Virus record (IMG/VR): IMGVR_UViG_3300032326_001618
Span: 1-38,063 of that record
Direction: 5' to 3' (one strand)
DNA: 38,063 nt
DNA from: a virus
A program made the translations under genes and the position numbers. The notes under the pieces are model-generated. The model was not told the origin of the DNA. It worked only from the letters and a program-made list of their open reading frames with translations, and made no database searches. This document shows positions 612-34,218 of the stretch, piece by piece. The stretch's first letter is position 1. Each line of letters begins with the position of its first letter.

Positions 612-618
612 ACGTGAA

Positions 619-674: not shown

Positions 675-3600
675 CTATCTACCGAAGATATAACGGATAC
701 CTAACTGAGCAGACCATACATCAAATACAGATGAATTGTATTGATATGAATCTCTAGCTAAGATAGTAGTACCATCTGTTAATCTTTGAGTTGCTAATCT
801 AAATGTTGGAACATTTGTAACTGCATCTCTGCTTACAAAGTTCAAGATTTGAGGAGCAGTTGCTCTTTGTGATATACCGAACTTATTATCAACCATGTTA
901 CCAAAGTTCAAGATATCAGCTCTGATTTGAAAAGCATTTCTCTTACCACCAATCTTAATAAAGATATCTTGTGCTACTGATAAATCGAATCTGTGTAAGT
1001 AAGGTAATAAACCACCATTTCTTTCAGCGTATTTACCATTACGAGTTTTTAAGTAATCGTCTTGGTTTACAAAATTCCAAAATGCAGCTTGTTGTTCTGC
1101 TTCTGTATACACTCTTGTACCAACTGTTAATGGTGCAAATCTGATTTCATTCCATTCTTTAGGAACATAAATTAAATCATTGTTATTTACTCTATCACCA
1201 TTTAAGTCACCTGCTACGATATAAGAGAATGGATTACCTTGTTGGCCTACATAACCTAAAGTGATTGTTGTAGCACCACCGTACTTAGAACCATACTCAA
1301 TTCTGTAACCTAATAAACCTACAAATCTATTTTTAACAAATGCATCTGCAAATGATAAATCTAAATTATTGTTACCTGCAATTGATAATGCTGATTGCCA
1401 AGAACCACTAGCAATTGAACCTGCACTCATAAAGTCTTTTGAGTTAGCAGTTGTCCAAGCGAATGAACCCCAGAAACCTTTTTGGTATGGTTTTTCTAAT
1501 TTCAATGTTAATGATTCGTGGAATGCACCATTCTTACTTGTAAGAACTGCTGCTCTTGAAACATTATTATTTACTCTAACTGTAGCATCAGAACCACCGA
1601 AACGAGGTCTGTTATCTACTCCACCTAAAGTTCCAACTGGAGCCTTTAAGTTAGCTTCGTAGTAATGAACTGCATTAAGTGTTTTATTATACAAATATTC
1701 AGCACTTGCTACTAATCCGAAAATTGGTAACTTTTGATCAACTGCTAAGTTAGTTTTCCAAACTTGTGGAAACTTATAGTTAGGATCTGTTAATGCTAAA
1801 TCAAATGTAGATGGTAAAGTTGGAGTTGATGGGATAAAATATTTGTTAGGATCTGCAGTAAAGCCATATTGAGCTGCAGCAGCACCACTAACATCAATAA
1901 ATCCAGTTAACACACCATTATTACCGATTTGGTTAGATAAGAATACATAAGGAGGACGACCTGTAAATAATCCAGTACCACCTCTAAATTGTGTTTTCTT
2001 TTGTCCTTTCACATCGTAGTTAAAACCTAATCTTGGTTCAAACAATACTTGCGTTTTAGGCATTACACCTGTATTCCATTTTTCACCGTTTGCAAATGTC
2101 ATTGCAGTGATTGCTGGATTTTCAAGTGCTGTGTTTTCGAAATCAATAATATTTGCTCTAACACCAAATGTTAATTTTAAATCTCTAGTTGCGTTATACT
2201 CATCTTGTAAGTATAAATCCAATCTATTTGATTTTAAAGTTTGCATTGGTTCAATTGCTCCTGGTAATGCAGAATATCTGAATTGGAAACGAGCAGGTGC
2301 AAATGTAGATGGTTTACCACCATTAGCTAATGATTGATTAGCCGCAGTATAGAAATCAGCTAAACTATTGAAAATATAAACACCATTTGAAGCAGGGAAG
2401 AACAAGTTATTTGATTGATACTTTTGGAAGTTGAAACCACCAACTAATGTATGCTTACCAGCATATTTTGTTAAGTTGTTAGTTACATTAAAAGTATTGT
2501 AATCTAATTTATTACCTGGAGTAAATGGATCGAATCCAACTGATGTTAATGTGGTTGAACCTTGTAAGATATCAATTGTTGGGAACATTTGGCTCATATA
2601 ACCTCTGTTCTCAATTTGCTTATCATAAGAAACAATTAAGTTATTGTATAATGTATTTGAAATCTTAGAGTTTAATTCAATTACCGCTGAACGAGTGTTA
2701 TCCTGAATAGTGTAACCACTATTTTGGAAACTCATTGCGTTAATGTTTCCTGTTCTATTACCGAAACCTGCAGATTGTGAATTTGAAATTCCAATTTGTG
2801 CTTCAGAATTATGGAATACATAACGTGCAGTTAATTTATTATTTGCGTTAATGTTCCAGTCAACACGAACTAAGAATTTATTAGATGTGTTTGTGTTAGA
2901 ATAACCTTCAAATGGACCAGTTTCATAATTAAACTTGTCTTTCATGAATTTAGAAAGATCAGTTAATTGTTGAAAAGTTGGTCTTGATACTTGTGAACCT
3001 GCTAATGGAGAACCTGTAGAGATCCAAGTTGTACCTGGTTCAGTTCTTTCAATTGATTCATAGTTACCAAAAATAAACAATTTGTTTTTAATAATTGGAG
3101 CGCCTAAACGGAAACCTTGTACTTTCTCATCAAATTTAGATGGAGTTACTTTTGTTCCTCTTGCATTGTTACCTACATAACGAGATGAATTATCACGTTG
3201 TGTTTGATAAACACTACCTTCAACTTCATTTGTACCTGATCTTGTTACAGCGTTAATACCAGCACCTGTAAATCCAGATTGACGAATGTCAAATGGTGCT
3301 ACGTTAACTTGTAATTGATCAATCGCGTCTAATGAAATAGCGCTTGCTCCAGTTCTACCACCTGCTGATGCAGATGAACCTAAACCGAAGTTGTTGTTGA
3401 ACTGAGAGCCATCAATTGTAAAGTTGTTCATACGAGAGTCTTGAGCACCAAATGAAGAACCATTACCGAAAGGATTGTATTTGGTAATACCTTCGATTGT
3501 TCTAGCACCTGTAATAGGGATGCTTTGTAATTCTCTACGTGTAAACTGTTGGGCTGCTCCTGTTTTTTCTTTAGAGAACAGACCAGATTTAGTACCTGTT

Positions 3601-3953
3601 ACAACTACTTCTTTTAATGCAGTTGCTTCATTTACTAATTTAAAATCTACGTTTGATGCTACACCTAATTGAGTGTTTACATCTTTTTCCTCACCTTTTC
3701 TAAATCCTACATACGAAGCATGGATTGTATATGGCCCACCTACTCTTACAGCAGGTAAAACATAAACACCATTCTTGTTTGTAATCGATTTGTACTCAGT
3801 GCCTGTTGGGGTGTGTGTTGCATGAATTACAGCACCAACCAACACTTCTTGTTTTTCGTTCTTAACAACACCAGAAATAGATGAGGTGGTAACTTGACCA
3901 AATCCCATCAAAACTGATACTGAAAGAAGTAACGATAAAATCGCTTTTTTCAT
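675..3953 (-). CDS. TonB-dependent outer-membrane receptor, Oar-like, carried by the phage
   Basis: This is a 1092-residue intact protein. I start it at the ATG at 3951-3953 because MKKAILSLLLSVSVLMGFGQ is a clean signal peptide; the frame stays open further upstream, but that stretch runs through the terminator hairpin. Residues about 24-108 form a carboxypeptidase-regulatory-like beta domain, typical of Bacteroidetes receptors. A TonB-box-like KEVVVTG (114-120) follows, then a plug domain (about 128-260, including a NNFTIDGSQFNN segment) and a long beta-barrel ending in GIRYIFGR. The family sits in the outer membrane and imports ligands using TonB energy; many members are phage receptors. 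Neighbours on both sides are phage genes, so this looks like an acquired host gene. It has a terminator-like hairpin in its leader and another after its stop. Role in the phage is unknown: receptor exchange, superinfection control or nutrient uptake are all possible. Confidence 0.92.
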   Translation of the reverse strand: MKKAILSLLLSVSVLMGFGQVTTSSISGVVKNEKQEVLVGAVIHATHTPTGTEYKSITNKNGVYVLPAVRVGGPYTIHASYVGFRKGEEKDVNTQLGVASNVDFKLVNEATALKEVVVTGTKSGLFSKEKTGAAQQFTRRELQSIPITGARTIEGITKYNPFGNGSSFGAQDSRMNNFTIDGSQFNNNFGLGSSASAGGRTGASAISLDAIDQLQVNVAPFDIRQSGFTGAGINAVTRSGTNEVEGSVYQTQRDNSSRYVGNNARGTKVTPSKFDEKVQGFRLGAPIIKNKLFIFGNYESIERTEPGTTWISTGSPLAGSQVSRPTFQQLTDLSKFMKDKFNYETGPFEGYSNTNTSNKFLVRVDWNINANNKLTARYVFHNSEAQIGISNSQSAGFGNRTGNINAMSFQNSGYTIQDNTRSAVIELNSKISNTLYNNLIVSYDKQIENRGYMSQMFPTIDILQGSTTLTSVGFDPFTPGNKLDYNTFNVTNNLTKYAGKHTLVGGFNFQKYQSNNLFFPASNGVYIFNSLADFYTAANQSLANGGKPSTFAPARFQFRYSALPGAIEPMQTLKSNRLDLYLQDEYNATRDLKLTFGVRANIIDFENTALENPAITAMTFANGEKWNTGVMPKTQVLFEPRLGFNYDVKGQKKTQFRGGTGLFTGRPPYVFLSNQIGNNGVLTGFIDVSGAAAAQYGFTADPNKYFIPSTPTLPSTFDLALTDPNYKFPQVWKTNLAVDQKLPIFGLVASAEYLYNKTLNAVHYYEANLKAPVGTLGGVDNRPRFGGSDATVRVNNNVSRAAVLTSKNGAFHESLTLKLEKPYQKGFWGSFAWTTANSKDFMSAGSIASGSWQSALSIAGNNNLDLSFADAFVKNRFVGLLGYRIEYGSKYGGATTITLGYVGQQGNPFSYIVAGDLNGDRVNNNDLIYVPKEWNEIRFAPLTVGTRVYTEAEQQAAFWNFVNQDDYLKTRNGKYAERNGGLLPYLHRFDLSVAQDIFIKIGGKRNAFQIRADILNFGNMVDNKFGISQRATAPQILNFVSRDAVTNVPTFRLATQRLTDGTTILARDSYQYNSSVFDVWSAQLGIRYIFGR

Positions 3954-3971
3954 CTGTGTTTTGTTTTGGTT

Positions 3972-4002
3972 AAAAAAAAGAGCGGAGACAATGCCCCCGC
4001 TC
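3972..4002 (-). terminator. Strong intrinsic terminator or attenuator in the receptor leader
   Basis: The minus strand forms a 10-bp GC-rich stem (GAGCGGGGGC with GUCUCCGCUC, two G-U wobbles) with an AUU loop, followed at once by eight U residues. It is the best intrinsic terminator in the window. It lies only 18 nt before the receptor ATG, so a promoter between it and the gene is hardly possible. Either it ends transcription from the primase/nuclease genes, or it acts as an attenuator that receptor transcripts must read through. Confidence 0.8.
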
Positions 4003-4064
4003 AAAGCGTTATATATATTTGTATATATTTGTTGTAACAATATGAAAATTTTTGGTTTTCAAAC

Positions 4065-5819: not shown

Positions 5820-6275
5820 TTACTCTGCCGAAATCAAATCTTTTCTATAAAATTTACCTAGTATATTGTCGTTCATGTATCTGTCGTCTTCTAGAACGTT
5901 GTACTGGAATAAACATTTAGTTTCCCAATATGTTAATTCCTTTTTATTTCTACATAACATTAATACGTAACGTTTCAGTTCGTCCTTTGGTAATGATTTT
6001 ACTTCAGTATTAGAACCATAGTAAGTTTTCCAGTCGCTTTCTTTAATTACTATTTTTTTAGATGGTCTTTTACCTCTAGTAACAGGAATCTCAGCTAACT
6101 CTTTCTTACCTAATTTTTTTGTTTGTGTGTGTTGAAATGCTTTTTTACCAATGTATGTACGGCCTGTTTTTAAATGAACAGTCATGTAGACGTATCCATA
6201 ATACTCAGTAAAATCGAATGTGGAATCGTTAATCATATCCTCTACCTCAGTAGCAGGACCTAAAACTTGAAACAT
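5820..6275 (-). CDS. GIY-YIG-like phage endonuclease
   Basis: A 151-residue protein with a GIY-YIG-like core: YGYVY (26-30) and GRTYIGKK (38-45) would be the two name-giving strands. Further on are a DWKTYYGS segment (81-88), a Glu in TYWETK (E118) that could be the metal ligand, and a late MNDNILG segment. Similar small proteins are common in T4-like phages and are usually annotated as putative endonucleases. It may be a free-standing homing-type or host-DNA nuclease. It sits directly upstream of the primase gene with an 18-nt gap. Family call is by motif only. Confidence 0.65.
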   Translation of the reverse strand: MFQVLGPATEVEDMINDSTFDFTEYYGYVYMTVHLKTGRTYIGKKAFQHTQTKKLGKKELAEIPVTRGKRPSKKIVIKESDWKTYYGSNTEVKSLPKDELKRYVLMLCRNKKELTYWETKCLFQYNVLEDDRYMNDNILGKFYRKDLISAE

Positions 6276-6293: not shown

Positions 6294-6905
6294 TTATATT
6301 AAACCCATACCTGCCACTATTTCAGCTACTTTATCTCTTTGATAAATATGAACTTCATTATCTGATAGTTCTTTTATTAAAAAGCCTTCTTCATCTTTAT
6401 AATGACTATAAACGTCTATGTATATAAAATTTTCTTCAGAACATTTCTGAATTAAAAGATTATTTAATTTTAAAGTATATCTAGCTCTATCTTCATCAGC
6501 TCCAATAAATGGATAGTTTGGATTATTAATAGATTCATCAAACGTTCCTGAATAAAACTTAACAGGAGGTACTACACTCATTACTGCTATATCTGAATGG
6601 ACTGTTTTAATATAAGTAATATAGTTATTAACTAATGTTTCTATTACTTCATCTTCATCTCTTCCTTCTTCTGTTATTTGTTTATTAATATGACATCTAA
6701 CATCAATCTCTCCAAATGCCATTACCCATAATCCTTCATTTGTAACTTCACCTGTGCTAAGAAATAATTCTAAATATTCTCCTAAACCTCTAGTACCAAC
6801 TCTATACATAGTAGTAGGTCCAATAGGGATAGTAGATATCTTATCTGAGAATCCACTTAGTGTTCCTGCGTGTGAATCTCCTAAACAATAGATTTTGTCG
6901 TACAT
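6294..6905 (-). CDS. SGNH/GDSL-like hydrolase
   Basis: A 203-residue protein that starts with a strand and the block I motif GDSH (D10-S11-H12), the catalytic-serine block of SGNH esterases. A block III-like GEIDVR (65-70) and a C-terminal Asp/His pair (D182, H186 in SDNEVH) complete a plausible triad. There is no signal peptide. Such enzymes remove, or occasionally transfer, acyl groups on carbohydrates. Since the next genes upstream are a structural protein, a Pro/Ser/Thr-rich protein and then a glycosyltransferase block, a role in tailoring a glycan is a reasonable inference, but the substrate is unknown. Confidence 0.7.
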   Translation of the reverse strand: MYDKIYCLGDSHAGTLSGFSDKISTIPIGPTTMYRVGTRGLGEYLELFLSTGEVTNEGLWVMAFGEIDVRCHINKQITEEGRDEDEVIETLVNNYITYIKTVHSDIAVMSVVPPVKFYSGTFDESINNPNYPFIGADEDRARYTLKLNNLLIQKCSEENFIYIDVYSHYKDEEGFLIKELSDNEVHIYQRDKVAEIVAGMGLI

Positions 6906-6908
6906 AAT

Positions 6909-7286
6909 TTAAGTGTCATATTTAACTACAAACGTCATGTCTGTATAAGGTGAAATTAATATTGGTTTACCAAATTTAGCAACTGCTAATAATTCGTTAT
7001 TATCATTATATAAACCTAATGCAGTTGCATATGGTGTAAAATATGATCCTGAAGGTAAATTAGAACCAGTAGCAAAATGTTTTAAAGTATTATCTAAAGA
7101 ACCTGTTAATGTATATTCATCACTACCTGGTTTTTTAATTATATATTGACTGCCTGATACAAGTAATGTTGGGTTGTAAGACAAGTTATATTCACTTTCT
7201 TGAATAACACAGCGCACTTCGTTTTCATAAACGATATGTTCATTTTTAAAAAGTATTGAAAAAGATCCACTGTGTATTGTTGCCAT
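6909..7286 (-). CDS. Small virion-type protein sharing a C-terminal module with the 17.85-18.83 kb gene
   Basis: A 125-residue protein of unknown function. Its C-terminal half (GLYNDNNELLAVAKFGKP and a final beta-like segment) matches the end of the 326-residue protein at 17850-18830, sharing the exact core YNDNNELLAVAK. At DNA level a run of 26 bases is identical (6985-7010 and 17926-17951). It looks like a stand-alone copy of that structural module. Closely packed between the SGNH hydrolase (3-nt gap) and the Pro/Ser/Thr-rich protein (9-nt gap), it is most likely a tail or baseplate accessory component. Confidence 0.65.
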   Translation of the reverse strand: MATIHSGSFSILFKNEHIVYENEVRCVIQESEYNLSYNPTLLVSGSQYIIKKPGSDEYTLTGSLDNTLKHFATGSNLPSGSYFTPYATALGLYNDNNELLAVAKFGKPILISPYTDMTFVVKYDT

Positions 7287-7295
7287 TGTTTAATA

Positions 7296-8057
7296 TTATC
7301 TTTGATTACCTAAGTATACATCAACAAAATAACTGTTTCCTAGAGTAGCTGTAGTAAATACACCACCACAAGAAGTTTTATTTTCTGTAGGAGCTAAAGC
7401 TGTTTGGTAATAAGGGCTACAAGCATCTGGTATACTATTAATGTAATTGTATATAGTTGATAATTGGTAACTGAATGCTTTAACAGTATGTAATGCTACA
7501 ACATAGAATTGAGTACCGTTTGGTATGCTGAAAGTGTATGAACTATTACTTGTTAATGGAGATCCAATTTGTGTAATAGTATTTCCGTTAAATAATGTTA
7601 CACTACCTGCGTTACCTGAATCTATTGTTAAGTTAACTGTAATGTTAACTAATGGAATCGTTGGTGAAGGGGTAATAGAAGGGGTTGGTGTAGGAGTTGT
7701 AGTTATCGTAGGAGTGATTGTTGGTGTTCTAGTTGGGTCTGGAGTTCGTGATGGTGGGAGTGGAGATTGTGTTGGTGTTGGTGATGGAGATGCGTTTGGT
7801 GTTAGTGATGGTGTTGGTGATGGAGATGGTGGGATTCCCACAATGTTTTTAATTACAGTTCGTGTCGCACAAGCAGGATTTACATTCACTACTGAAATTT
7901 GAGTTGTTGCATCAGAAACGTTTGTTTGAAATCCTTGTTGAAGTGATGTTAAACTCAAATTAGAAGCAAGTTCTTGGCCTGTATTATAGTTGTAGACGTT
8001 ATAAGGTCCTGGTGAAGTAACACTTCCTGTAAGCTGTACGTAAATTATCTGTGCCAA
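7296..8057 (-). CDS. Pro/Ser/Thr-repeat stalk protein (short form)
   Basis: A 253-residue protein in three parts: an N-terminal beta-like domain (1-74), a Pro/Ser/Thr-rich stalk (about 76-135, repeats such as TPSPTP and RTPDPTRTP) and a C-terminal beta-like domain with two cysteines. The only usable start is a TTG at 8055-8057, two codons after an in-frame stop, so the start codon is unusual. The [10 protein letters not shown] pattern recurs in the larger protein at 15846-17843. I infer an extended fibre or decoration protein. The stalk would be a natural target for O-glycosylation by the enzymes encoded next door. Host-binding specificity cannot be read from sequence. Confidence 0.7.
7653..7832. 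repeat. Degenerate repeat encoding a Pro/Ser/Thr stalk
   Basis: About 180 bp of imperfect short repeats coding for PT/PS-rich residues 76-135 of the protein at 7296-8057. It is related in wording to the longer array at 16203-16913, suggesting exchange or common origin. Confidence 0.7.
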
Positions 8058-8077
8058 ACTATGTTATGTTTTGTATA

Positions 8078-8086
8078 TATAAATAT
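8078..8086 (-). promoter_or_regulatory. ATATTTATA motif before the short stalk gene
   Basis: Coding-strand ATATTTATA ending 20 nt before the TTG start of the short stalk gene and just after the stop of the bifunctional glycosyltransferase gene. This marks a possible transcription start inside the glycan block. Confidence 0.4.
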
Positions 8087-9781
8087 TTAATTCTCACGTC
8101 TTTCTTCAGGCTTATACCATATTATTCTATTATGGTTAATTGGTGATGCTAGTAACACAGCAGGGTGCAAATTGCCTTTGCGAGTTTCTTGAAACATGTG
8201 ACTCATCCACGTTTGTTCGTACGGGTGTGCCCATTTTAAATTGATAAACATTTTTTTATTACCCTCTTTACTAACAATCATAGGCCAGTTTGCATAGTAA
8301 ATTTCGCCAGAAATATAACTTACCCCATCTAATACGTTAATATTGTTAAATTGAGTGCGTGGAGCATTGTTATCTAATCCATTTACAGGCAATCTATCAT
8401 AATGAGGCCATATTTCTGTTCTAACACCTTGTGGTACATTATACCAAGATACTTGAATATTATTATCCATGTATACCTCCGTATATGATAATTTAAGATA
8501 ATCAAAATTTTCTTTAATCATTATCTTGTGAATAGTGTCATACAGATTAGGGATGAATTGTCTAAATCCATTTCTACAAAATTTACCTTCCATAGTAGGG
8601 GTGTGTAAACACATATCATCCTCTAAAAATACATAATAATCGCTATCTGACTCGTGAAAATGTTCTGCTGCAAGCTGCCTACCCCCACATATACCTCCGT
8701 TTTTACCGGTTATTATGTGCTCAAAACCATATTTATCTGCTATTACCTTATTATCTAATCTTGCTTGTAATTCAGTAGAATTATCAATAAGTATTTTGCG
8801 AGTACGATTTAACCATTCAGGATGTTTTTCATAACTATCCAACAATGTTTGTAGTTGTTGTGGAAAATTAAACGTCAACACATATAAAGATGTTTTTACA
8901 TCTAAATGTGATTTGTTGCTTTGAACAAATTGTATACGGGATTCTGGTATTGGTTCTAAGGCAACTGTATTTTCATCTAGTGCTTGAATAAATTTTATAA
9001 TTAATCCATTTCCATCTAAAGCATATCGTCTATATTTTTCTGGTTCTAGATAGGACATTATTAGAAATATACTTTCTTCAGTTCCCATTAAACCTTCAGA
9101 TAAAGATCTATCTAATATTGAATAATACAAACCATTAGCCTCGTGTATTGCTTGCTTAGTTCCTCCAAATAATCCTCCTCTACAAACCCACTTAGCAGTA
9201 TCTTCACAATATCTGTTTATATCTTCAAATTTAAAACCGTGTATTTCATCTGTTGCTTCATATGGATATGATAAGAACAAAAATGGGTTTAAATAAGATG
9301 TTATTTTATCTAAAACTTTATTTTCAGTAAAGAATTTTTCATAAACAGTATTTGTAATACCAGCATCTAACCATATAAAATATTCTGAATCAAATGGGTT
9401 CCAAATGGTAACATCATGTAACATGAACATTTTAGATTGCACTATTGGGTTGTACCATTCATTAGATGCTTGAGGACTATCTTTTAACCATCCACCTTCA
9501 CCTGTTAAATTATACCAATCAGGATTAGTTCTTATTTGTTGTGTTTTATCCCAAAACGGAGAATATAGATTTTTTACATCATCTAATTCATAAGTTTTAA
9601 CAAAAGTATTTTCTGTTTTTCTTTTATTCCAAACTAAATGCTCATATTCTCTAGGAATATAAATAAATAGATTAGCATCAATATCTAAAAAATTATTAAA
9701 ATGCTGGATATAATGATCAAAAGAACGGCCTGGTCTATTTATATTCCATAACCCTGTTACTATTGTTAATTTATTGTTCAT
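8087..9781 (-). CDS. Two-domain glycosyltransferase: HtrL/YibB-like plus GT-A domain
   Basis: A 564-residue protein that appears to be a fusion. Residues 1 to about 270 resemble the HtrL/YibB-WlaTC family (IVTGLWNINR at 8-17, WLDAGI at 138-143, GGLFGGTK at 202-209, GTEESIF at 233-239). Residues about 296-564 form a GT-A/GT2-like domain starting VLTFNFPQQLQTLL, with GGICGGRQLAAE (362-373) and an acidic metal motif FLEDDM (385-390). Such enzymes transfer sugars from nucleotide-sugar donors. Two different active sites in one chain suggest sequential additions to one glycan. It is the last gene of the seven-gene glycan block, 1 nt from its upstream neighbour. Confidence 0.8.
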   Translation of the reverse strand: MNNKLTIVTGLWNINRPGRSFDHYIQHFNNFLDIDANLFIYIPREYEHLVWNKRKTENTFVKTYELDDVKNLYSPFWDKTQQIRTNPDWYNLTGEGGWLKDSPQASNEWYNPIVQSKMFMLHDVTIWNPFDSEYFIWLDAGITNTVYEKFFTENKVLDKITSYLNPFLFLSYPYEATDEIHGFKFEDINRYCEDTAKWVCRGGLFGGTKQAIHEANGLYYSILDRSLSEGLMGTEESIFLIMSYLEPEKYRRYALDGNGLIIKFIQALDENTVALEPIPESRIQFVQSNKSHLDVKTSLYVLTFNFPQQLQTLLDSYEKHPEWLNRTRKILIDNSTELQARLDNKVIADKYGFEHIITGKNGGICGGRQLAAEHFHESDSDYYVFLEDDMCLHTPTMEGKFCRNGFRQFIPNLYDTIHKIMIKENFDYLKLSYTEVYMDNNIQVSWYNVPQGVRTEIWPHYDRLPVNGLDNNAPRTQFNNINVLDGVSYISGEIYYANWPMIVSKEGNKKMFINLKWAHPYEQTWMSHMFQETRKGNLHPAVLLASPINHNRIIWYKPEERREN

Positions 9782-9782
9782 A

Positions 9783-10589
9783 TTATTTTAAATAACCTTT
9801 GTGTACAAATTCCATATAATTTTCATCCATTTGAGCTTGTCTATACAAATTACAACCCTCAGCACCCTCATGAGACGTATGACGTAACACAGGAAACGTT
9901 GTAACTCCACCTTTTTCTTGCCACTGCTCAATAGTAAGTAACTGTTCTTCATGCTCATAACATGCTACTAATTTCTTAATACCTTGTTTACCCATATAAG
10001 CAGCAACTAAAATATCATCATTCCATGAACTACCTATAAAATCTGTAAAGAAATCATCTTCAAACCATCCACGTCTATAAGATACTGTTTTATAGTGTTG
10101 TAAGTGATTTACTTCAACATCCTTAGGAACAGATACTACATAATAATTTCTTACATCTGCAAACACAGATGAATCTTCAGCTCTTACTCCATCATATCCA
10201 ACTGCTGTTCTTTTGTATTTGCTTTGATTTTTAACCTGTTCAGCTACCATCCCTGGATGGTAAACTAAGTCATCATCACAAACAATAATTATTGCTTCAG
10301 GATCATCTACACGTTTTATTGTGTGAGCTAATTTAGTAACAGGACCTAAATCTTCTAAATTATCAAATATTTTAAATTTAGGATTAGTAGTAGCTAATTC
10401 TCTCATCCATTCAGGAACTACATAAGTTTCTCCAGTATGTTTTAGTACTGAAGGTACATTAAAATGGATTTCATATTCACCTTCAAAATCTTGGTTGATT
10501 AGTGAATCAATATTACTTTTAATCCCTTCAGGATATTCTGCTACTATTCTTGTTGGTAACGTTGTTAGTGTTACAATTACTTTACTCAT
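9783..10589 (-). CDS. GT-A-type glycosyltransferase (TTLPTR/CDDD family)
   Basis: A 268-residue protein starting with VTLTTLPTR (6-14), then a segment with EDLGPVTKL (79-87) and a probable metal-binding IIVCDDDLVY (101-110). These features match small GT-A-fold glycosyltransferases. It is a paralogue of the adjacent 282-residue protein: both share TT-x-P-x-R, DLGP-[VI]-TK, VCDDD and a late Trp-rich segment with a DD pair. The 8-bp overlap with the upstream gene and the 1-nt gap to the downstream gene indicate a single operon. Donor and acceptor sugars are not predictable. Confidence 0.75.
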   Translation of the reverse strand: MSKVIVTLTTLPTRIVAEYPEGIKSNIDSLINQDFEGEYEIHFNVPSVLKHTGETYVVPEWMRELATTNPKFKIFDNLEDLGPVTKLAHTIKRVDDPEAIIIVCDDDLVYHPGMVAEQVKNQSKYKRTAVGYDGVRAEDSSVFADVRNYYVVSVPKDVEVNHLQHYKTVSYRRGWFEDDFFTDFIGSSWNDDILVAAYMGKQGIKKLVACYEHEEQLLTIEQWQEKGGVTTFPVLRHTSHEGAEGCNLYRQAQMDENYMEFVHKGYLK

Positions 10590-11430
10590 TTTCTGTATAT
10601 ATTTTATCGTGATTGTGTATTAATTCCCAAATATAATCTTCTGTACGTCCCATATGATGGCCTGCTTTTTGTCTAAATTCATAAAATCCTGAATTTGGAT
10701 ATGGAAGAGGGTAAATTATTGGGAACGTATGCGCCCCGCGTCCATGATCATTTACTGCTCTAAAGTCAGTTTCTTTATCCCAAGCAACACATCTGATATG
10801 AATTTCATATTTTTTAAGATAATAACCTACAAGAACATCATCATTATCTGAAGCTGATAGGAAGTCTTTATCTAAAAAATCATCTTTAAAGAATGATCTT
10901 TTGTAACCTACTGAATGCCAATGTCCTGGTATAACTAGTTGAGAGTCATTTTTTACAGGGAAATAAAAATGGGTTGACGGTAATGTGTATTTTTTGATTC
11001 CATCTTCTTCCCATTCTCTTTTTTCTATAGGAGAATCTCCTCTAAAAGCAATAACACATTTTGGATATTCATTCATCTTTTTCAAATGATATTCTACCAT
11101 ATCTTCATGATATAAATGATCATCATCACACACTATTAGTACATCATTAGGATCATTACATATAAAAAACGAACCTACGATTTTAGTAATAGGACCTAAA
11201 TCTTCTTCTACTCTATTAAGAATTAATTTAGGATTTTCATTTGCAAATTGTGTTAGCTCATCAGATATAATGTATTCTTCATCATTGTTATTTCTATAAC
11301 GATAAGGAATATTTAATATAACCTTATAATCAGATGTAGTATTTTGATTTAAAAGCGTATTTAAATTTTTCTTTAATTGTTCCCAATAACCCATTCTTAC
11401 AGGAACCGTTGTCAGTGATATATAAATCAT
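10582..11430 (-). CDS. GT-A-type glycosyltransferase, paralogue of the next gene
   Basis: A 282-residue protein with ISLTTVPVR (4-12), EDLGPITK (76-83) and VLIVCDDDHLYH (97-108). The CDDD is the likely DxD-type metal and nucleotide-sugar site. It is clearly related to the 268-residue protein encoded just downstream, so this pair arose by tandem duplication and probably adds different sugars or acts at different steps. Its stop overlaps the next start by 8 bp. Confidence 0.75.
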   Translation of the reverse strand: MIYISLTTVPVRMGYWEQLKKNLNTLLNQNTTSDYKVILNIPYRYRNNNDEEYIISDELTQFANENPKLILNRVEEDLGPITKIVGSFFICNDPNDVLIVCDDDHLYHEDMVEYHLKKMNEYPKCVIAFRGDSPIEKREWEEDGIKKYTLPSTHFYFPVKNDSQLVIPGHWHSVGYKRSFFKDDFLDKDFLSASDNDDVLVGYYLKKYEIHIRCVAWDKETDFRAVNDHGRGAHTFPIIYPLPYPNSGFYEFRQKAGHHMGRTEDYIWELIHNHDKIYTENE

Positions 11431-11431
11431 A

Positions 11432-12301
11432 TTATAGTTGTTTTAAAAAGCTTAAATCACAATCAGGAATATTTGGGTTGTTTGGAAAATCTAATCCCTC
11501 TATAGGATAATCCTGTGTATCTGGTTGGTACTCAGATACATATTTTCTATTTACAAATGTAAATTCTGGTACTTTAGGTAGTGTATGACCCTCGTAGGTA
11601 AATTCACCACCCCAATTATTTCCATGTACATGTGTTAATATAAAATGCTTATTTAACTTTTCCATCATTTCAACAAATTTAGATTGATTTTGTGGTTGGT
11701 CAATCCAATGTACTTCTAATATAATACCTACTGTGAATGATGCCAAATCATCTATATCTTCATTTATAACATAGTCATATTCAGCTCCTTCAGTATCTAT
11801 CTTTAAAAATACATCTCCTTCAAGTTTTAACTGATTGTAATGTTCTCTAGGTGTCTTTAAACTTAGAGCGTCCATTAGTTGTTTAGATAGTTCATAACTA
11901 TCATTTAACACTTTCTTTAAACTCTTTACAGTTTTAGTATCCTGATTGGTACTAAACATTTCTATAGCATTAATAATTTGATCTTTTTTGCTATTTAAGT
12001 TTTGGAATAATTTATTTGCTTCTTCTTTATAGTAATTACTATTACCTAGTCCTTCTGGATAGTAATACTGTTCACCAATACTCCATTTTTCTTGGTTCAT
12101 AGTATGATCAAATATATAATTTGGTTTATCATACTTTGCAATAAAAGCATCTTCATAACTTTTATCACCACCATATCCATAGGTAAGAAGTGATGTACAT
12201 TTTTCAAGTATTAATTCAGGTACTACATAACCACCATCGCTTTGGCTACCTAGTCTAATTTTGGGAGAGTTTATGTTATAAACTTTAAAATATTTTAGCA
12301 T
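11432..12301 (-). CDS. FkbM-family methyltransferase
   Basis: A 289-residue protein with a SAM-binding-like segment LLTYGYGGDKSYE (38-50) and the FkbM signature DVFLKIDTEGAEYDYV (163-178). FkbM enzymes O-methylate sugars and polyketides. In this block it probably adds a methyl group to a sugar, which often caps a glycan chain and stops extension. Between the two motifs is a Lys-rich helical insertion (about 95-145) that I cannot assign. It lies in the middle of the glycosyltransferase genes with gaps of 1 and 10 nt, so co-expression is likely. Confidence 0.8.
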   Translation of the reverse strand: MLKYFKVYNINSPKIRLGSQSDGGYVVPELILEKCTSLLTYGYGGDKSYEDAFIAKYDKPNYIFDHTMNQEKWSIGEQYYYPEGLGNSNYYKEEANKLFQNLNSKKDQIINAIEMFSTNQDTKTVKSLKKVLNDSYELSKQLMDALSLKTPREHYNQLKLEGDVFLKIDTEGAEYDYVINEDIDDLASFTVGIILEVHWIDQPQNQSKFVEMMEKLNKHFILTHVHGNNWGGEFTYEGHTLPKVPEFTFVNRKYVSEYQPDTQDYPIEGLDFPNNPNIPDCDLSFLKQL

Positions 12302-12311
12302 AGTTTTTTAT

Positions 12312-13286
12312 TTAATAAGGAAATATTTGAGCACGGTTTTCATAAAATTTTTTTAATTCATCATAGTTTTTATCTATAAAATCTTGTTTACCTATTTGAG
12401 ATGGAAAGACGGTGTTTAAAGCCCAATTCCAAAATCTATCTTCAGGATAACAATCAACTCTAAAAGAACCTTCAGATAAAGAATTATCTAAACCTAATTC
12501 AGAAGACCAAGACATAGGTTCAGCTCCTAATAAATTAAATAATATTGATAGAATATGTTCTGAATGGAGTCTCCACATTGTGTGTCCCTTTAGTATAAAA
12601 AATTGATCATCAGTTAGTACATCATATATAATGTTATCTAATAAGGTAGAAAACGTTTTTATAGATTCTTTATTAGGAAATTTTAAACTTCTAAAATTAC
12701 CATCAGTTCTTATAAATTGATCTTTAATTTCACTATCAGTAATTTTATATTTGTTATTAATAGTAGTAGCAAATTCCTTTAAAAAAGATAGTGTATTTTC
12801 ATCATCATAATACCCCGCAGGTATTACTATTATTTTATTTTGTAAGGATTCATCTGGAAATGGTGTTGTGAAGTAGTGGTTAAGTTTTTGAAAGACTTCA
12901 TCGGTTGCTATAGGAATTATATCACAGTCCATAAAAATAAACCCATCATACTCAGATACTCGTTCCCAATTAAATACAAATCTTCTTAATAGTGTTGGTA
13001 TTTGTGTATTATTTAATAAAAATTCTTCAGCATACTTAGCTTCATCAAATTTTTCTTTAGGTAGTGGTTCTAAATCAAATGACCAAGGATAACTTTTTCT
13101 CATTTCATCTATATCCTTAATTATTACATTAGATTTATGAGATATTGAATCAAAATATTCAACAGAATCGGTTAATAAAAATATATCAAAATAATCATAT
13201 GATTTATAAGTTGTAATATTTTTTAATAACCTTTCTTTATATGTTGGACCCAATGCAAATTGAGTGATTAATATTTTATTATTCAT
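12312..13286 (-). CDS. Probable GT-A glycosyltransferase (DCD motif)
   Basis: A 324-residue protein. After an N-terminal strand (KILITQFALGP) comes GFIFMDCDIIPI (115-126), with D120-C-D122 as a DxD nucleotide-sugar site like those of GT8/GT32-type enzymes. Later segments (LTDDQFFILKG, HSEHILSILFNLLGAEPMSW) fit the acceptor half of such folds. The family is not certain, but position in the block and the DxD make a sugar transferase the best call. The gap to its upstream neighbour is 2 nt. Confidence 0.6.
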   Translation of the reverse strand: MNNKILITQFALGPTYKERLLKNITTYKSYDYFDIFLLTDSVEYFDSISHKSNVIIKDIDEMRKSYPWSFDLEPLPKEKFDEAKYAEEFLLNNTQIPTLLRRFVFNWERVSEYDGFIFMDCDIIPIATDEVFQKLNHYFTTPFPDESLQNKIIVIPAGYYDDENTLSFLKEFATTINNKYKITDSEIKDQFIRTDGNFRSLKFPNKESIKTFSTLLDNIIYDVLTDDQFFILKGHTMWRLHSEHILSILFNLLGAEPMSWSSELGLDNSLSEGSFRVDCYPEDRFWNWALNTVFPSQIGKQDFIDKNYDELKKFYENRAQIFPY

Positions 13287-13288
13287 TA

Positions 13289-14560
13289 TTATTGATCTAT
13301 TTTATATTCTAGACGTTCACACCACCCTTTAGCATCACTGTAAGCCCAATACACAACTCTAGCTGGTTTTTTGTCTGTTAGGAAAAATTCTTCATAATGA
13401 ATATTTCTACCATTATTAAAATTAGTAATCTCTTGTTGATCAATATATTTGGTATGAATTGCTTTACCATCCTCATCATCAAATGCTACTAAAACAAATT
13501 TATAATCAGTATCAGGGAAGAAATTTTTATCTACTGTTACCAAATAATAAAATGATCCCATAAACGATTGTTCCCACAATTCATCATTTTGAATTAATGG
13601 GTTAGGAGGGAAATGATTCTCTAAAGTATATTTCTGTACTGCCTTTTTCTTAAAATTAAAACCAGCATATTTTTCAAAATCACGTAATGTTCGTACAGTA
13701 CCTAAATCATATCCTGTTAAATCAACACTTGAATCTTCTTCAGTACGCAATAAACATCTAATTTTCTTTCGTGCTGTATCTTGTTTATGCCACCACTCAA
13801 CACCTAATTTAGAATCATCATCCCATTTTAATATACCTGATCTTTCCTCTCTCATTGTAGAATGCCAAATTACTAATTTATGAGGATGAAACATATCGTA
13901 TCCGTGAGTGTATGAACGAACAGTTAAATTTAATTCTTCACCACTGAAATAAATATCAGGATCGTGTCTTATTTCTTTTGCCCATTTACTTCTAGCAAAA
14001 CAGAAATGTCCTGATAAAAAACGTGACATTGGTGGTTCTTCCATATGTTGCCATCCTTCTAATAATCCGGGGCGTATAAAAATAGTACCATGCGGATAAA
14101 AACAAGCAAACTGTTGTTGCCAAGGTTCCATTGAACGTCCTTCAGGGTCATTTAATGGGGTGTAAAGTGGCAGATAAGCAGCCAATATAGGTTTATATCC
14201 TTTTTCTTCTAATTTACTATGCATATCAATCAAAGTAACATCCCAATCTTTAGCAAAACGGTGATGTGAATCTAATTGCAATATATAGTCTTGATTAGTT
14301 AATAAGTTTTCATTTATTTGAGCACGAGCCCAAGGTAAACCTTGAGATTCAGTATATAATACATCTATAATATGAAAACGTTTATCCTTTCTAAATTCAT
14401 CCAAATTATCAAATGTATCATCAGGATGATATTGTCTACAAATACCAAAATGAACACGCTTAGGATATTTTGCCTTTGCTAATGCATCTTTAATAGTAGG
14501 AACCAATTCAGGATCTCTATATGCTGGTAAGTGTATTAGTATTGTTTTTGTTTTACTCAT
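13289..14560 (-). CDS. GlcNAc-transferase-like protein (PF11397 type), copy 1
   Basis: A 423-residue protein with the signature order of the 'Glycosyltransferase (GlcNAc)' family, known from the Skp1 hydroxyproline GlcNAc transferase of Dictyostelium: LPAYRDPEL (11-19), a GxCRQ segment, ESQGLPWARA (71-80), the DxD-like QLDSHHRF (95-102), and a later SGEELNLTVRSYTHGYDMF region. A C-terminal beta domain of about 100 residues follows. The enzyme would add a sugar, possibly GlcNAc, to a protein or glycan. It is followed and preceded by other glycan genes and overlaps the related upstream gene by 8 bp. Confidence 0.8.
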   Translation of the reverse strand: MSKTKTILIHLPAYRDPELVPTIKDALAKAKYPKRVHFGICRQYHPDDTFDNLDEFRKDKRFHIIDVLYTESQGLPWARAQINENLLTNQDYILQLDSHHRFAKDWDVTLIDMHSKLEEKGYKPILAAYLPLYTPLNDPEGRSMEPWQQQFACFYPHGTIFIRPGLLEGWQHMEEPPMSRFLSGHFCFARSKWAKEIRHDPDIYFSGEELNLTVRSYTHGYDMFHPHKLVIWHSTMREERSGILKWDDDSKLGVEWWHKQDTARKKIRCLLRTEEDSSVDLTGYDLGTVRTLRDFEKYAGFNFKKKAVQKYTLENHFPPNPLIQNDELWEQSFMGSFYYLVTVDKNFFPDTDYKFVLVAFDDEDGKAIHTKYIDQQEITNFNNGRNIHYEEFFLTDKKPARVVYWAYSDAKGWCERLEYKIDQ

Positions 14561-15809
14561 ATTTTATAGTTTGTTCTATTACATCCATCCATCCTTTTGA
14601 TTCACTATGTGGCCATACTCTCCAACTGCTTGGTAAAGTTGTGTTTTCAAATTCTCTCCATATATGGATAAATTGATCGTTTGGATCAACATTCATCAAA
14701 TATTTTATTTCACTACCATCAGCATCTTGTCTATATAAATCATTTCCATTTTTATCTAATAAAGCTACAGCAAACATACTATAATCACTTTCAGTTATAG
14801 ATCCTTTATAAACGTCTATACACACTTTTATTTTATTACGTAATCCCGATTCGTAATCTCCTTTTGTTGGTGGGGGGTTATTGGTTAAAGTATATTCGTG
14901 AATTTGTCTTGTCTTAAATTTTAAGCCAACATAACGTTCATAGTCACTTAATGATCTTTTATTTCCAAAACCATATTTACCAAATTCTTTTTGAACACAA
15001 GAAATACAATCTTCATCCATTCCAAACAATGATCTAAATCTAGCGTATGAATTTTTATCACGTTGAGGCCAAATAGAATCATCATCCCATTGTTTTGTTT
15101 TACCGTCTCTAAAATATTCATGCCAAGCATAAATTTTATGAGGGCTAAACAAATCGTACCCATGAGTATAAGCACGAGCAGCTAATGAAGTTTCCTCACC
15201 ATGAAAATAAAAATTAGGATCGTATGGAACTTCAGCTGCAAATTTACCTAATGTAAAAATAAAATGTGCTGATAAAAAACGAGCAGGTACTGGTTCAGTC
15301 ATATCTTTCCATCCATCCAATCCTTGTGGATTTAGAAACACAGCACCTTCAGGTAAAAATCTTTGAATGTTTAACATCCACACTTCATCAATTCTTCCAT
15401 TTGGATCTTTGTCTGGGAAATATGAAGGTATATAGGCTGATAATAATGGTTTAAGGTAACCTTTACATTGTAAGTAGTGTACCATATCAATTAATTCTGT
15501 ATCCCAATTTTTAATAAATCGGTGATGTGAATCTAATTGAAAATAATAATCTTCGCCTTGATATTGTTCTTGAATTTTAGCTCTAGCCCAACACACACCT
15601 TCAGATTCCTCATATGGAATATCAATAATTCTAAATCGTGGGTCTTTTTTATATTTTTTGAGAGTATCCCATTTATCTTGCTTAGAATGCTGCCATGCAA
15701 TGCATATCACTAAATCGTCAGGATTAGCAGCATTTTCTATTAAGTTTGCTAAGGTTGGCAATAATTCGGGATCTCTATAGGCAGCTATAGAAACAAAAAT
15801 TTTAGACAT
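14553..15809 (-). CDS. GlcNAc-transferase-like protein (PF11397 type), copy 2
   Basis: A 418-residue paralogue of the next gene, with FVSIAAYRDPELLPTL (5-20), EESEGVCWARA (67-77), FQLDSHHRF (90-98), a RFLSAHFIF segment and HGEETSLAARAYTHGYDLF. The same C-terminal beta extension is present. It is the first gene of the glycan block as transcribed and lies 36 nt after the large Pro/Ser/Thr stalk gene, which encodes the most plausible acceptor in the region. Whether the paralogues differ in donor or site is unknown. Confidence 0.8.
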   Translation of the reverse strand: MSKIFVSIAAYRDPELLPTLANLIENAANPDDLVICIAWQHSKQDKWDTLKKYKKDPRFRIIDIPYEESEGVCWARAKIQEQYQGEDYYFQLDSHHRFIKNWDTELIDMVHYLQCKGYLKPLLSAYIPSYFPDKDPNGRIDEVWMLNIQRFLPEGAVFLNPQGLDGWKDMTEPVPARFLSAHFIFTLGKFAAEVPYDPNFYFHGEETSLAARAYTHGYDLFSPHKIYAWHEYFRDGKTKQWDDDSIWPQRDKNSYARFRSLFGMDEDCISCVQKEFGKYGFGNKRSLSDYERYVGLKFKTRQIHEYTLTNNPPPTKGDYESGLRNKIKVCIDVYKGSITESDYSMFAVALLDKNGNDLYRQDADGSEIKYLMNVDPNDQFIHIWREFENTTLPSSWRVWPHSESKGWMDVIEQTIKYE

Positions 15810-15845
15810 AACATTAATATAACTAATTTATTTTAGATATCCAAA

Positions 15846-17843
15846 TTATCCTTCTTGAACAGTTACTACTACAGTACTATTCTTGTTTATACTCATAGTG
15901 TAAGATTTTTGTACTTGATCACTAGCAGCAAAGTTTTGTACATCCATTTGATTAGCATCTAAATACCATATTACATAACCTACATCAGCAGCTATACCAT
16001 CAGGTGCTACTCTATCTACATAGAATGTTACATTAATATTTGATCCATCAGATGGTAAGTTAGGAACATTGAACGTAGATGAATTGAAAGTTCCGTATAC
16101 AGTTGCTTGGTTAGCTCCTGTAGATCCTTCACTTGAATAGAATTTATAAGCAATGGTAGAAGCAAATACATTTACTGAGCCGGTAGCCTGTATTGTTACA
16201 TTTGGTATTGTTGCTGATGGTGTAACTGATGGTGTTCTAGTTGGATCTGGTGTTCTAGATACAGATGGTGTTCTAGTTGGATCTGGTGTTCTAGATACAG
16301 ACGGTGTAGGTGTTAATGATGGTGTACTTGTTGGATCTGGTGTTCTAGTAATACTAGGTGTAGATGTTACCGATGGTGTTCTAGTTGGATCTGGTGTAAC
16401 TGATGGTGTTCTAGTAATAGAAGGAGTAGCAGTTACTGATGGTGTTCTAGTTGGGTCTGGTGTTAATGATGGTGTTGCTGTAACTGATGGTGTTCTAGTA
16501 ATAGAAGGTGTTAATGACGGAGTTGCCGTGATTGATGGAGTTCTAGTAATACTAGGAGTTAATGAAGGTGTAGCCGTTAATGACGGTGTTGCCGTTAATG
16601 ATGGTGTTCTAGTGATGCTAGGAGTAGACGTTATAGATGGTGTTAATGATGGAGTAGCAGTTATAGATGGTGTTAATGATGGTGTTGCTGAAATTGATGG
16701 TGTTAACGATGGAGTTGCAGTTATAGATGGTGTTCTAGTAACACTAGGTGTTAATGATGGAGTAGCCGTTAACGATGGAGTAGCCGTTATAGATGGAGTT
16801 CTAGTGATGCTAGGTGTTGCTGTTACACTTGGTGTTGCGGTAACACTAGGTGTTAATGATGGTGTTCTAGTTACTGATGGTGTTCTAGTTACTGATGGAG
16901 TAGGTGAAGGTGGGATTAATCTTACTGCAATATCAAATTCACAATCAGGAGCACCTACATTGAATCTAATTAAAGCCTTATTACTAGTAAGAACAGTTCC
17001 ACTAAACTGAGCATCTACTGTATAAAAAGCATCATATGTTCCTGGTTGGAAGAATGGGTAAGGACTAGAACTAGAAACCATACTAGCTATAGTATTAAAA
17101 CTACCTGTAAGTTTAATAACACTGCCTGATAATGAACCAGATAATGCTATAGAACTTGTTATTAAAGAACCAAATCGAGCTAAATCATTAGTTAATATAC
17201 TTCCAGTTTTATCATAATCACTTGCCTTAACATTAATAATATCAGCTACAGCAAGTGGAGGAAGAGGAAACATATTTTGATAGTCCTGGTTAGTAATTAC
17301 TGCTATACCTTGTGGGTAGAATATATTACCAATATGAGTATTACCACCATTATAAAGATTACCATTACCATCATCTGTTACATAATATGCTGAAGATGAT
17401 AATACAAAATTGTAAGGTAAAACTTTATTACCATATACTTCTTGATTAATTGTTAATACACGAATACCTTCATTAGCTCCTGTAGGAAAATATTTTTTAC
17501 AGTTAGGGTTTTCATCATAAATAAAATATGATGAAGTTGCTAATTGTCTAGATGCTGATTCGTAAAATATAGAATTAGCAAGAGATGATGTATCTAAAAG
17601 AGAACCACTAAATTCATGATAGAATAAGTGATTAATTGAGTGATAAACTAAACTTTCATATTGACCCTCTGTTACAGGATCCATAATAGAATCAAAGCTA
17701 CTAGTTAAATTAGTACCTTTGTATATTGTTACATAACTATCGTTTTCAGGATATCCTAACGTATAGGATAAATTCCATTGCTTATTGGCAGCATATGATA
17801 CCTGCGTAACATCCGATTTGTTTAGTTGTTTGAATGATGACAT
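15846..17843 (-). CDS. Large Pro/Ser/Thr-repeat stalk protein, probable virion fibre or decoration
   Basis: A 665-residue protein with three parts. Residues 1-310 form a Ser/Tyr-rich N-terminal region like other tail proteins of this phage. Residues about 311-547 are a long array of five-residue units TPS[VIL]T with variants RTPDPTRTP. Residues 548-665 form a C-terminal beta-like domain with no cysteines. A rigid proline-rich stalk between two globular ends suggests a fibre or whisker that holds a tip domain away from the virion. Almost every second or third stalk residue is Ser or Thr, so dense O-glycosylation is possible, and the glycan genes follow directly. It is preceded by structural genes (6-nt gap). 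Confidence 0.75.
16203..16913. repeat. About 710-bp array of 15-bp-type repeats (TPSxT units)
   Basis: The array encodes some 47 tandem five-residue units in the large stalk protein. On the plus strand GATGGTGTTCTAGT and close variants recur throughout. The units are imperfect but in frame throughout, which keeps the reading frame open through slippage in steps of 15 bp. Copy number may vary between relatives. Confidence 0.85.
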
Positions 17844-17849: not shown

Positions 17850-18830
17850 TTAGTAATCTAACTTCACTCTGATTAATGCTTCTTTAGTAAAATCTTTTAC
17901 TAATGGTTTTGATAATTTAGCTACCGCTAATAATTCGTTATTATCATTATACATACCTACTGTTGTAACGTATGTTTGAGGATTATTAACTAATGTTGTA
18001 TACAATAAATTACCATTAGAATCTATAATAGATGGGTTAGTAGTATAATTGTACTCACCATTTTTTACTCTTGTAAAGAAATAGCGTGCTGAAATTGTTT
18101 CAGATGATTTTAATTGAAAGTTACCACTACCAGTCATTGCAGAGAATAATCTCAAATGATTAAAAGATGTTGTAGAACCTGTGCTATAAGAAAATGCAGG
18201 TGAATCACTACCAGTTAATGCATTAGCATTTAATACTACAATATTAAGATCTGGGAAGAATAAACCATAATATGTTGTAGGAACTCCTGAAGTATAGTAA
18301 GCTCCATTACTTCCACTAATAATATTATAATATCTATTTTCACCAATGAAACGAGTTAAATTTGTAGTACCACTATCATCTGTAAAAAACTCAGATCCAC
18401 TAACACCAGTTAATGTTAAGTTTAAAGAACCAGGTAATAAAGATTCTTTGTAACGAGCTCTAGATATATTAATTACATAAATAGCATTTGATGTAGTTGA
18501 ACCACCGTCAAAACTAAAGTTTGTTGTTTCAGTACCATAAACTAAGTTTCTGTATTGTCCATAAACTACACGTGATGGAGAATATCCAGGAACAGCACTA
18601 TTAATAGGAGCTGATCCAGATCCACTTACGTGACCAAACTGAATGCTAAATTGTACTGATGCAGAAGTAGATAGGGAAAGATTTGAATTGTAAACATCTA
18701 AATAATATTCACTATATCCGCTTTGGGTAAAAAATGAAGATAATGTGTAAGCATCTCCACTCCACAACCCGCGTACTACGGTTTCTGAACTAACTACTGA
18801 ATCTTCTGTATTATATCTTGTAAATGACAT
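17850..18830 (-). CDS. Virion structural protein, probable tail/baseplate
   Basis: A 326-residue Ser/Thr/Tyr/Gly-rich protein without a signal peptide or membrane segment. Its C-terminal part (about 255-326: ARYFFTRVKNGEYNYTTNPS, then MYNDNNELLAVAKLSKP) recurs as a stand-alone protein at 6909-7286. This YNDN..LLAVAK module appears to be a building block of contractile-tail proteins in T4-like environmental phages. It lies between the large stalk gene and another structural gene with gaps of 6 and 13 nt. Exact position in the virion is unknown. Confidence 0.7.
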   Translation of the reverse strand: MSFTRYNTEDSVVSSETVVRGLWSGDAYTLSSFFTQSGYSEYYLDVYNSNLSLSTSASVQFSIQFGHVSGSGSAPINSAVPGYSPSRVVYGQYRNLVYGTETTNFSFDGGSTTSNAIYVINISRARYKESLLPGSLNLTLTGVSGSEFFTDDSGTTNLTRFIGENRYYNIISGSNGAYYTSGVPTTYYGLFFPDLNIVVLNANALTGSDSPAFSYSTGSTTSFNHLRLFSAMTGSGNFQLKSSETISARYFFTRVKNGEYNYTTNPSIIDSNGNLLYTTLVNNPQTYVTTVGMYNDNNELLAVAKLSKPLVKDFTKEALIRVKLDY

Positions 18831-18843: not shown

Positions 18844-19509
18844 TTAAACTGTGGCTACTTTTTGGATGTTTAAAGGAATAGTAATTCTAGCACCACTATC
18901 TCTACCAATAACGGTAAGTGTAGTTGTTAATGTAGACAAACTTGTTCCAAATAAAGTATTAATTGTAGTACCTGTTATTGTAAATGAAGTACCAATTTGG
19001 CTTGATGATAATACAGCACCTGAAGTTGTGTTTAAACCTGTAATTCCTGGTGTTGTTACTGTGATACCTGTTCCTGCGAATGAAGATAATAATCTTGAAT
19101 CAGAAACAGTTACAATATATCCGTTTGTTTCAAATGTACTTGTAGCACCTAAGTAATTAAGCGTTTGTGGAGTAATTGTTAATGAAGCTCCTTGACGCAA
19201 TGATATACTAGTATATCCAATGTTAACAACAGGTAAACGTGATGTACCACGAGGTAGTGTTACTAACTTATAACGCATAATTTGCGTGTCTTCAGGAAAT
19301 GCTTCAATTACAGGCATATTTTCAATTGCTTCACCATAGTAAGCAGATCCTGATGGGTGATTTGGATTATACAAAGTATAATCAATTTCATCATCAGCTA
19401 ATGAAAACTGTGTGATTTGAAATGAACCATCATTACGAGCCAATAATTCGCGGCCCTTAGTGGTTAGTATTGCGTCTACAGTTACTGTTGTAGGATTTAA
19501 AATTGCCAT
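18844..19509 (-). CDS. Virion structural protein with N-terminal ILTTKGRELLARNDGSF segment
   Basis: A 221-residue protein. Residues 12-50 (ILTTKGRELLARNDGSF, then ITQFSLADDEIDY) form a conserved-looking segment that I associate with structural proteins of T4-like environmental phages, but I cannot name it. The C-terminal two thirds are Thr/Ser/Val-rich with a repetitive beta pattern, resembling an Ig-like domain. It starts a set of structural genes preceded by an ATATTTATA motif. Likely a baseplate or tail-tip component. Confidence 0.65.
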   Translation of the reverse strand: MAILNPTTVTVDAILTTKGRELLARNDGSFQITQFSLADDEIDYTLYNPNHPSGSAYYGEAIENMPVIEAFPEDTQIMRYKLVTLPRGTSRLPVVNIGYTSISLRQGASLTITPQTLNYLGATSTFETNGYIVTVSDSRLLSSFAGTGITVTTPGITGLNTTSGAVLSSSQIGTSFTITGTTINTLFGTSLSTLTTTLTVIGRDSGARITIPLNIQKVATV

Positions 19510-33427: not shown

Positions 33428-33441
33428 AGTATATGTTTATA

Positions 33442-33836: not shown

Positions 33837-33839
33837 ATC

Positions 33840-34169: not shown

Positions 34170-34178
34170 AACTTATTT

Positions 34179-34212: not shown

Positions 34213-34218
34213 CAACCA

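Follow-up and report, generated by a model that had tools for sequence, protein, structure and literature searches.

In serine-rich-repeat adhesin loci of Gram-positive bacteria, private glycosyltransferases (GTs) are encoded beside one repetitive adhesin that they decorate, and the GtfA/GtfB pair is accompanied by an accessory Sec system. The system described here lies on the minus strand at positions 6294-17843 of IMG/VR virus record IMGVR_UViG_3300032326_001618, a 38-kb fragment of a T4-like, Bacteroidota-type phage, whose whole stretch of 38,063 nucleotides is termed the window. This block likewise encodes a set of GTs beside repetitive proteins, which here are two proteins with long Pro/Ser/Thr stalks; however, a Pfam scan of ten block proteins turned up neither a GtfA/B-type pair nor SecA2/SecY2. 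Comparison with related phages indicates that the block is very probably an exchangeable fibre cassette for the dedicated virion O-glycosylation of these stalks.

Virion O-glycosylation by phage enzymes has been described in mycobacteriophages such as Che8 (Freeman et al. 2023, as cited in PMC11256854). Both systems have phage-encoded GTs, with the glycans on virion proteins known in the mycobacteriophages and proposed for the window. The capsid and tail proteins of Che8 end without Thr runs, whereas the proposed acceptors here are long stalks on fibre-type proteins beside the enzymes. In phages related to the window, the gene directly after the stalk usually belongs to one of two families, namely c1, which carries the PF11397 (GT60) domain and is represented in the window, and c0, a 318-residue family that has no Pfam match and is absent from the window. 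No c1 member was found in Che8, and no mycobacteriophage stands among the c0 matches counted by organism.

The GT60/PF11397 family includes OGNT of Trypanosoma cruzi and Gnt1 of Dictyostelium. The GT60 enzymes of T. cruzi form GlcNAc-alpha-Thr on mucins (PMC9472816), which are stalk-like substrates. The window's enzymes score far over the cut-off of the family profile, but the phage enzymes differ from the characterised members in lacking a membrane anchor, and their activity is predicted from sequence. In addition, the prolyl-hydroxylase family PF13640 is absent in 13 of the 14 c1 records, which makes hydroxyproline an unlikely acceptor and Ser/Thr the likelier one.

Stalks and sugar genes in the variable fibre slot

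Genes are referred to below by their first coordinate (Table 1). The variable slot was defined as the interval from 17850 to 5820, and IMG/VR relatives fetched by 17850 or 18844 gave 65 distinct loci. The anchor was chosen independently of stalk and GT traits, and the end of the slot was required within 10 kb, a limit that the longest cassettes, that of the window among them, exceed. The gene order is shared by Flavobacterium phage immuto, in which gp105-gp101 lie between gp106 (17850) and gp100 (5820); three of these five proteins carry tail fibre or tail spike annotations, and the slot of Microcystis phage Mel-JY01 resembles that of immuto. The stalk proteins of the window are located in the tail module, and their relatives fill this fibre slot, which holds either a short stalkless relative of 15846 (stalk protein 1), usually with a 6909-type domain at its end, or stalk proteins, in some cases accompanied by further genes.

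Among the 65 loci, 34 have neither a stalk nor sugar genes, 20 have both a stalk and GT genes, 10 have a stalk only, and one has a GT without a full stalk (Fisher p = 2e-8). A stalk is present in 20 of the 21 loci with local GT genes, the exception being a c0 locus (L116) with a short Thr run only. On the anchor tree, the presence of GTs changed eight times, and the stalk changed in the same direction in about four of five supported independent pairs and never in the opposite one. The additional genes in the slot form clusters of GT2, GT6, GT25, GT34, GT32-like and HtrL_YibB proteins, several methyltransferases, a carbamoyltransferase, a hexapeptide transferase and a nucleotide-sugar epimerase. 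This gene set varies between phages, as would be expected if the glycan is under diversifying selection.

The families c0 and c1 never occur together in any of the 65 loci, and the type of the first enzyme predicts the type of the stalk across related phages. The stalks that accompany c1 are without exception rich in Pro (13.1-25.6% Pro, 43 distinct stalks), whereas those that accompany c0 are all rich in Thr and poor in Pro (1.5-11.5% Pro, 59 stalks), with no overlap between the two ranges. The match was first noticed on the initial locus sets. For a test, loci were then retrieved with c0 as the sole query; an S/T-rich stretch lies in one of the two upstream genes in 71/78 of them, versus 9/1028 other genes. 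This test is only partly independent because some loci share contigs with the first set. Unrelated lineages in the c0-fetched set (L299-L323) show the same stalk association. In one lineage, represented by 56 loci that share an anchor, the tree contains three c0/c1 swaps, and the stalk type switched each time with no discordant case; a formal p value would require more independent swaps than these three. The initial annotation had read the block as a phage system that builds a glycan on its own fibres, a reading that gains support from the stalks in nearly all GT loci, from the prediction of Pro content by enzyme type and from the stalks in the c0-fetched loci.

Isolate phages, bacteria and alternative explanations

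Relatives of c0 are present in 74 records of isolate phages, chiefly phages of Lactobacillus, Enterococcus, Staphylococcus and Lactococcus. All 11 of the c0 isolates examined have poly-Thr proteins, and the poly-Thr stretch is frequently a tail of the major capsid or tail protein, as at the C-termini of the major tail proteins (MTPs) of bIL285 (...TTTTTTTTTRHD), phiFL1C (...GTTTTTSTTTTTTSSTTTTTTTQASSK) and 1706 (...VTTTTTTTTTTHHD) and of the 4995_1 capsid protein (...GTTTTTTKPTTTTTTTQA). The poly-Thr codon pattern has 3-22 matches per genome in these 11 isolates, versus none in six other Bacillota phages without c0, which include phiFL3A, a member of the same genus as phiFL1. Among isolates that carry c1, XacN1 and RAS14 contain 91 and 76 TP[ST]xTP[ST] sites, respectively; 11 stalkless contigs have 0-1 per record, and immuto and Mel-JY01 have none. 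At least two glycoproteins have been reported in XacN1 virions (PMC5852040), for which proteomics data are deposited as PXD008065.

In individual loci of isolate phages, c0, which corresponds to phrog_4417, has a major capsid or tail protein with a poly-Thr C-terminus next to it or close by (L328, L331, L333, L334, L335 and L337). At L331:2164-2926 and L333:1508-2210, the terminal Thr run of the upstream gene, annotated as major tail protein in L331, overlaps a second poly-Thr open reading frame (ORF) in another frame, and programmed frameshifting could lengthen the tail in a minority of the protein copies from these two loci.

In bacterial genomes, S/T/P-rich proteins are encoded by 15 of the 301 genes that lie at most two genes from a c1 relative, versus 0 of the 397 genes five or more genes away. 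Examples of PF11397-type genes near Pro/Ser/Thr-rich proteins (L345-L424) are seen in Jiulongibacter (L347) and Acidobacteria (L418), which suggests that bacteria have similar private glycosylation loci. No bacterial c0 homolog was found by a pattern scan of 84,980 species, in which the patterns were narrow.

We consider it rather likely that virion O-glycosylation is widespread and modular and follows an enzyme-acceptor code, with phrog_4417 as the GT for poly-Thr tags and GT60-type enzymes for Pro/Ser/Thr stalks. The pairs would be swapped among phages of Bacteroidota, Bacillota, Actinomycetota and Pseudomonadota, and many siphophages would use the poly-Thr tails of capsid or tail proteins as acceptors.

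The same enzymes might instead remodel the surface polysaccharide of the host, leading to seroconversion or superinfection exclusion, with their proximity to the stalks in a fibre locus being incidental. Phage GT clusters are often interpreted in this way, for example as capsular polysaccharide modification systems in a review of jumbo phages (PMC7824862), and genes for GT2, FkbM, epimerase and acetyltransferase proteins are typical of envelope glycan loci. Nevertheless, this explanation is improbable, given that the enzyme type predicts the stalk chemistry without overlap, that the sugar genes are lost along with the stalk in relatives, and that c0 adjoins poly-Thr-tailed capsid and tail proteins. 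Moreover, the window's block lacks the traits of gtr-type seroconversion, namely a membrane-bound flippase and membrane-bound GTs.

A quite improbable alternative holds that the stalks are unmodified disordered spacers, which recombination gathers together with sugar genes in a hypervariable slot without any enzyme-substrate link. Local GTs are indeed missing from ten of the 30 stalk loci, and the records of these ten, some of which exceed 130 kb, yielded no c0 or c1; therefore, stalks can exist without these enzymes. The GIY-YIG endonuclease-like gene at the end of the slot could drive such exchange. However, hitchhiking leaves unexplained the pairing of c0 with Thr-rich and of c1 with Pro-rich stalks, which is seen also in unrelated Bacillota phages.

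The stalk-only loci weigh against dedicated O-glycosylation of the stalks as well. The expectation that related phages keep stalk and glycan genes together was thus borne out from the side of the GT loci, but broke down for these ten. Further points on the same side are that GT2 genes are common in these phages, stalk or no stalk, that several c1 loci on short fragments and the 104-kb record L031 have no Pro/Thr stalk, and that phylogeny-corrected sign tests fall short of 0.05 with few independent swaps (3-8). Both the glycan on the stalks and the location of the stalks in the virion are predictions. Finally, an action of the enzymes on phage DNA or an intracellular small molecule is barely conceivable: GTs that act on hypermodified DNA bases are well known from phages, but polypeptides are the substrates of PF11397/GT60, the nearest family to have been characterised (PMC9472816), and the linkage of the genes is with tail genes instead of nucleotide-modification genes.

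Stalk architecture, predicted enzymes and proposed route

The repeat of stalk protein 1 spans residues 303-556 (254 residues of TPS[VIL]T type, 118 of which are Ser/Thr), and that of stalk protein 2 is about 86 residues long. Detection of both arrays by TRF confirms the two long Pro/Ser/Thr stalk proteins that had been described as flanking the glycan genes. The highest S+T+P fraction in any 60-residue stretch has a bimodal distribution across 5919 ORFs from related loci, with a median of 0.25 and a separate class above about 0.62, indicating that the make-up of the stalks is not chance composition. Thr, Pro and Ser of the stalks are encoded by 3-5 codons each, and therefore the pattern is kept at the protein level and not as a DNA repeat alone. 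The structure model of a stalkless 15846 relative is of low confidence (pLDDT 59) and matches mostly uncharacterised phage proteins.

The enzymes of the block have no clear membrane segment (top 19-residue hydropathy of 1.06). Judged from its sequence and its place right after the stalk, 14553 is the likely initiating enzyme of the glycan, with a PF11397 score of 240 bits, compared to 175 bits for 13289 and a cut-off of 21. The motif LDSHHRF is invariant in 18 phage members of the GT60/PF11397 family, whose conserved metal/nucleotide motif is of this DSH type. The initial annotation counted six GT-type genes, five of which (14553, 13289, 10582, 9783 and 8087) have Pfam support; the sixth, 12312, has no convincing match in Pfam, PHROG, NCBIfam or PDB. 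A kinship of 12312 to 8087 or c0 was considered, and profile comparison gave no signal. A search for PDB sequence relatives of 14553, c0 and 12312 gave none that was convincing. The assignment of the FkbM methyltransferase holds, whereas the SGNH hydrolase, said to lie between the stalks, is located outside stalk protein 2 and is a weak call. A relative of this SGNH-like protein occurs in one other related contig only, and the gene is not in the core.

The family phrog_4417 is listed as 'unknown function'. The AlphaFold2 model of c0 built from 16 members (pLDDT 78, pTM 0.84) matches GT-A enzymes throughout, including glycogenin, Skp1 galactosyltransferase (6mw5), LgtC and UGGT, with Z of 14-15, and the HDxD motif is invariant in c0. 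The predicted GT-A fold points to a putative glycosyltransferase, which would be the first enzyme of the sister cassettes with Thr-rich stalks.

We propose that the soluble phage enzymes would glycosylate the stalks in the cytoplasm, ahead of assembly. The PF11397/GT60-type pair 14553 and 13289 would start by placing the first sugar, probably GlcNAc from host UDP-GlcNAc, directly on Ser/Thr in the stalks of 15846 and 7296. The GT2-type enzymes and 8087 would then extend the glycan, which the FkbM enzyme 11432 may cap with a methyl group. Glycosylation would probably turn the stalks into stiff, mucin-like and protease-resistant fibres that hold the tip domains off the particle.

As far as the open literature shows, the placement of a private set of enzymes next to the mucin-like stalks of the same locus, the two exchangeable pairs and the proposed role of phrog_4417 are new, and no paper linking threonine-rich or polythreonine phage proteins to glycosyltransferases was found there. 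Virion glycosylation has so far been demonstrated in few phage groups only, and phages whose particles bear sugars may be much more widespread than has been assumed. Comparison alone brings phrog_4417 and the repetitive stalk proteins together in a single testable system. Its members are found across several phyla of hosts and include bIL285, a prophage of the widely used laboratory strain Lactococcus lactis IL1403, in which orf45 is the phrog_4417 gene. The system bears on how phages shield or extend fibres and tail tubes. It also yields candidate soluble protein glycosyltransferases with simple repetitive substrates.

Gene layout and neighbouring features

All listed ORFs of the block were found at their places. 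The transcription order is 18844, 17850, stalk protein 1, 14553, 13289, 12312, 11432, 10582, 9783, 8087, stalk protein 2, 6909, 6294 and 5820, and the successive intergenic gaps along the block are 6, 36, -8, 2, 10, 1, -8, 1, 29, 9, 3 and 18 bases, in agreement with the operon-like, single-strand packing noted at the outset. The count of promoters and terminators within the block is not above that in shuffled sequence. Elsewhere in the window, genes for gp6- and gp25-type baseplate proteins, an endolysin, a large tail protein, a primase and an exonuclease mark the T4-like phage.

Table 1. Features of the glycan block and its flanks, in order of transcription.
Feature	Coordinates	Strand	Remarks
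Conserved tail-module protein, upstream of slot	18844..19509	-	immuto gp107
Fibre-type protein, used as anchor	17850..18830	-	Relatives: Flavobacterium phage immuto gp106, Mel-JY01, RM378
Stalk protein 1, 665 aa, proposed acceptor	15846..17843	-	N-terminal domain as in stalkless relatives, Pro/Ser/Thr stalk, C-terminal tip domain
c1 enzyme, PF11397/GT60-type polypeptide GlcNAc-transferase candidate	14553..15809	-	Pfam E 6.7e-71; phrog_24687 E 7e-153; first gene after stalk
Second PF11397/GT60-type enzyme, usually in tandem	13289..14560	-	Pfam E 3e-51; 39% identical to 14553
Conserved protein, 324 aa, variable member	12312..13286	-	GT-A-like by DxD-like motif only; relatives exist in related loci
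FkbM-family methyltransferase	11432..12301	-	PF05050 E 1.2e-7, over cut-off
GT2-type glycosyltransferase	10582..11430	-	PF00535 E 1.2e-6, over cut-off
GT2-type glycosyltransferase	9783..10589	-	PF00535 E 5.6e-6, over cut-off
HtrL_YibB domain (residues 6-227) and second conserved half	8087..9781	-	PF09612 E 1.1e-12; in most c1 cassettes
Stalk protein 2, 253 aa, proposed acceptor	7296..8057	-	Small N-terminal domain, stalk, C-terminal domain; relatives at same place
Separate copy of C-terminal 'YNDNNELL' domain	6909..7286	-	Same domain fused to stalkless fibre protein in many GT-less relatives
SGNH/GDSL-like protein, accessory	6294..6905	-	GDSL_2 E 0.0044, under cut-off; GDSH and DxxH motifs present
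SegE-type GIY-YIG endonuclease-like gene, end of variable slot in relatives	5820..6275	-	PF19835 E 7e-23

The SegE-like gene 5820-6275 might be the driver of cassette exchange; its counterpart in immuto (gp100) is annotated as 'NAD synthetase'. At positions 675-4040, the window encodes a TonB-dependent-receptor/Oar-like outer-membrane protein with an OMP_b-brl_4 and a carboxypeptidase-regulatory domain. It is probably a real phage gene, because it has matches in related contigs and the same kinase gene follows it in L062 as in the window; isolate phages gave just one near-full-length match, which is distant. Over positions 33300-38063, the GC content rises from about 0.30 to 0.39-0.45 and the coding density falls, so that this part is possibly a foreign or misassembled segment. 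Finally, the N-terminal tag MIKL.DILKE is common to unrelated small proteins, namely that of window 3-650 and 38 ORFs of related loci (e.g. L169:16088-16474 and L051:19128-19892). It has 38 N-terminal versus 0 internal occurrences in 903,793 residues, and could be a capsid-targeting or prohead-protease signal of head-carried proteins.

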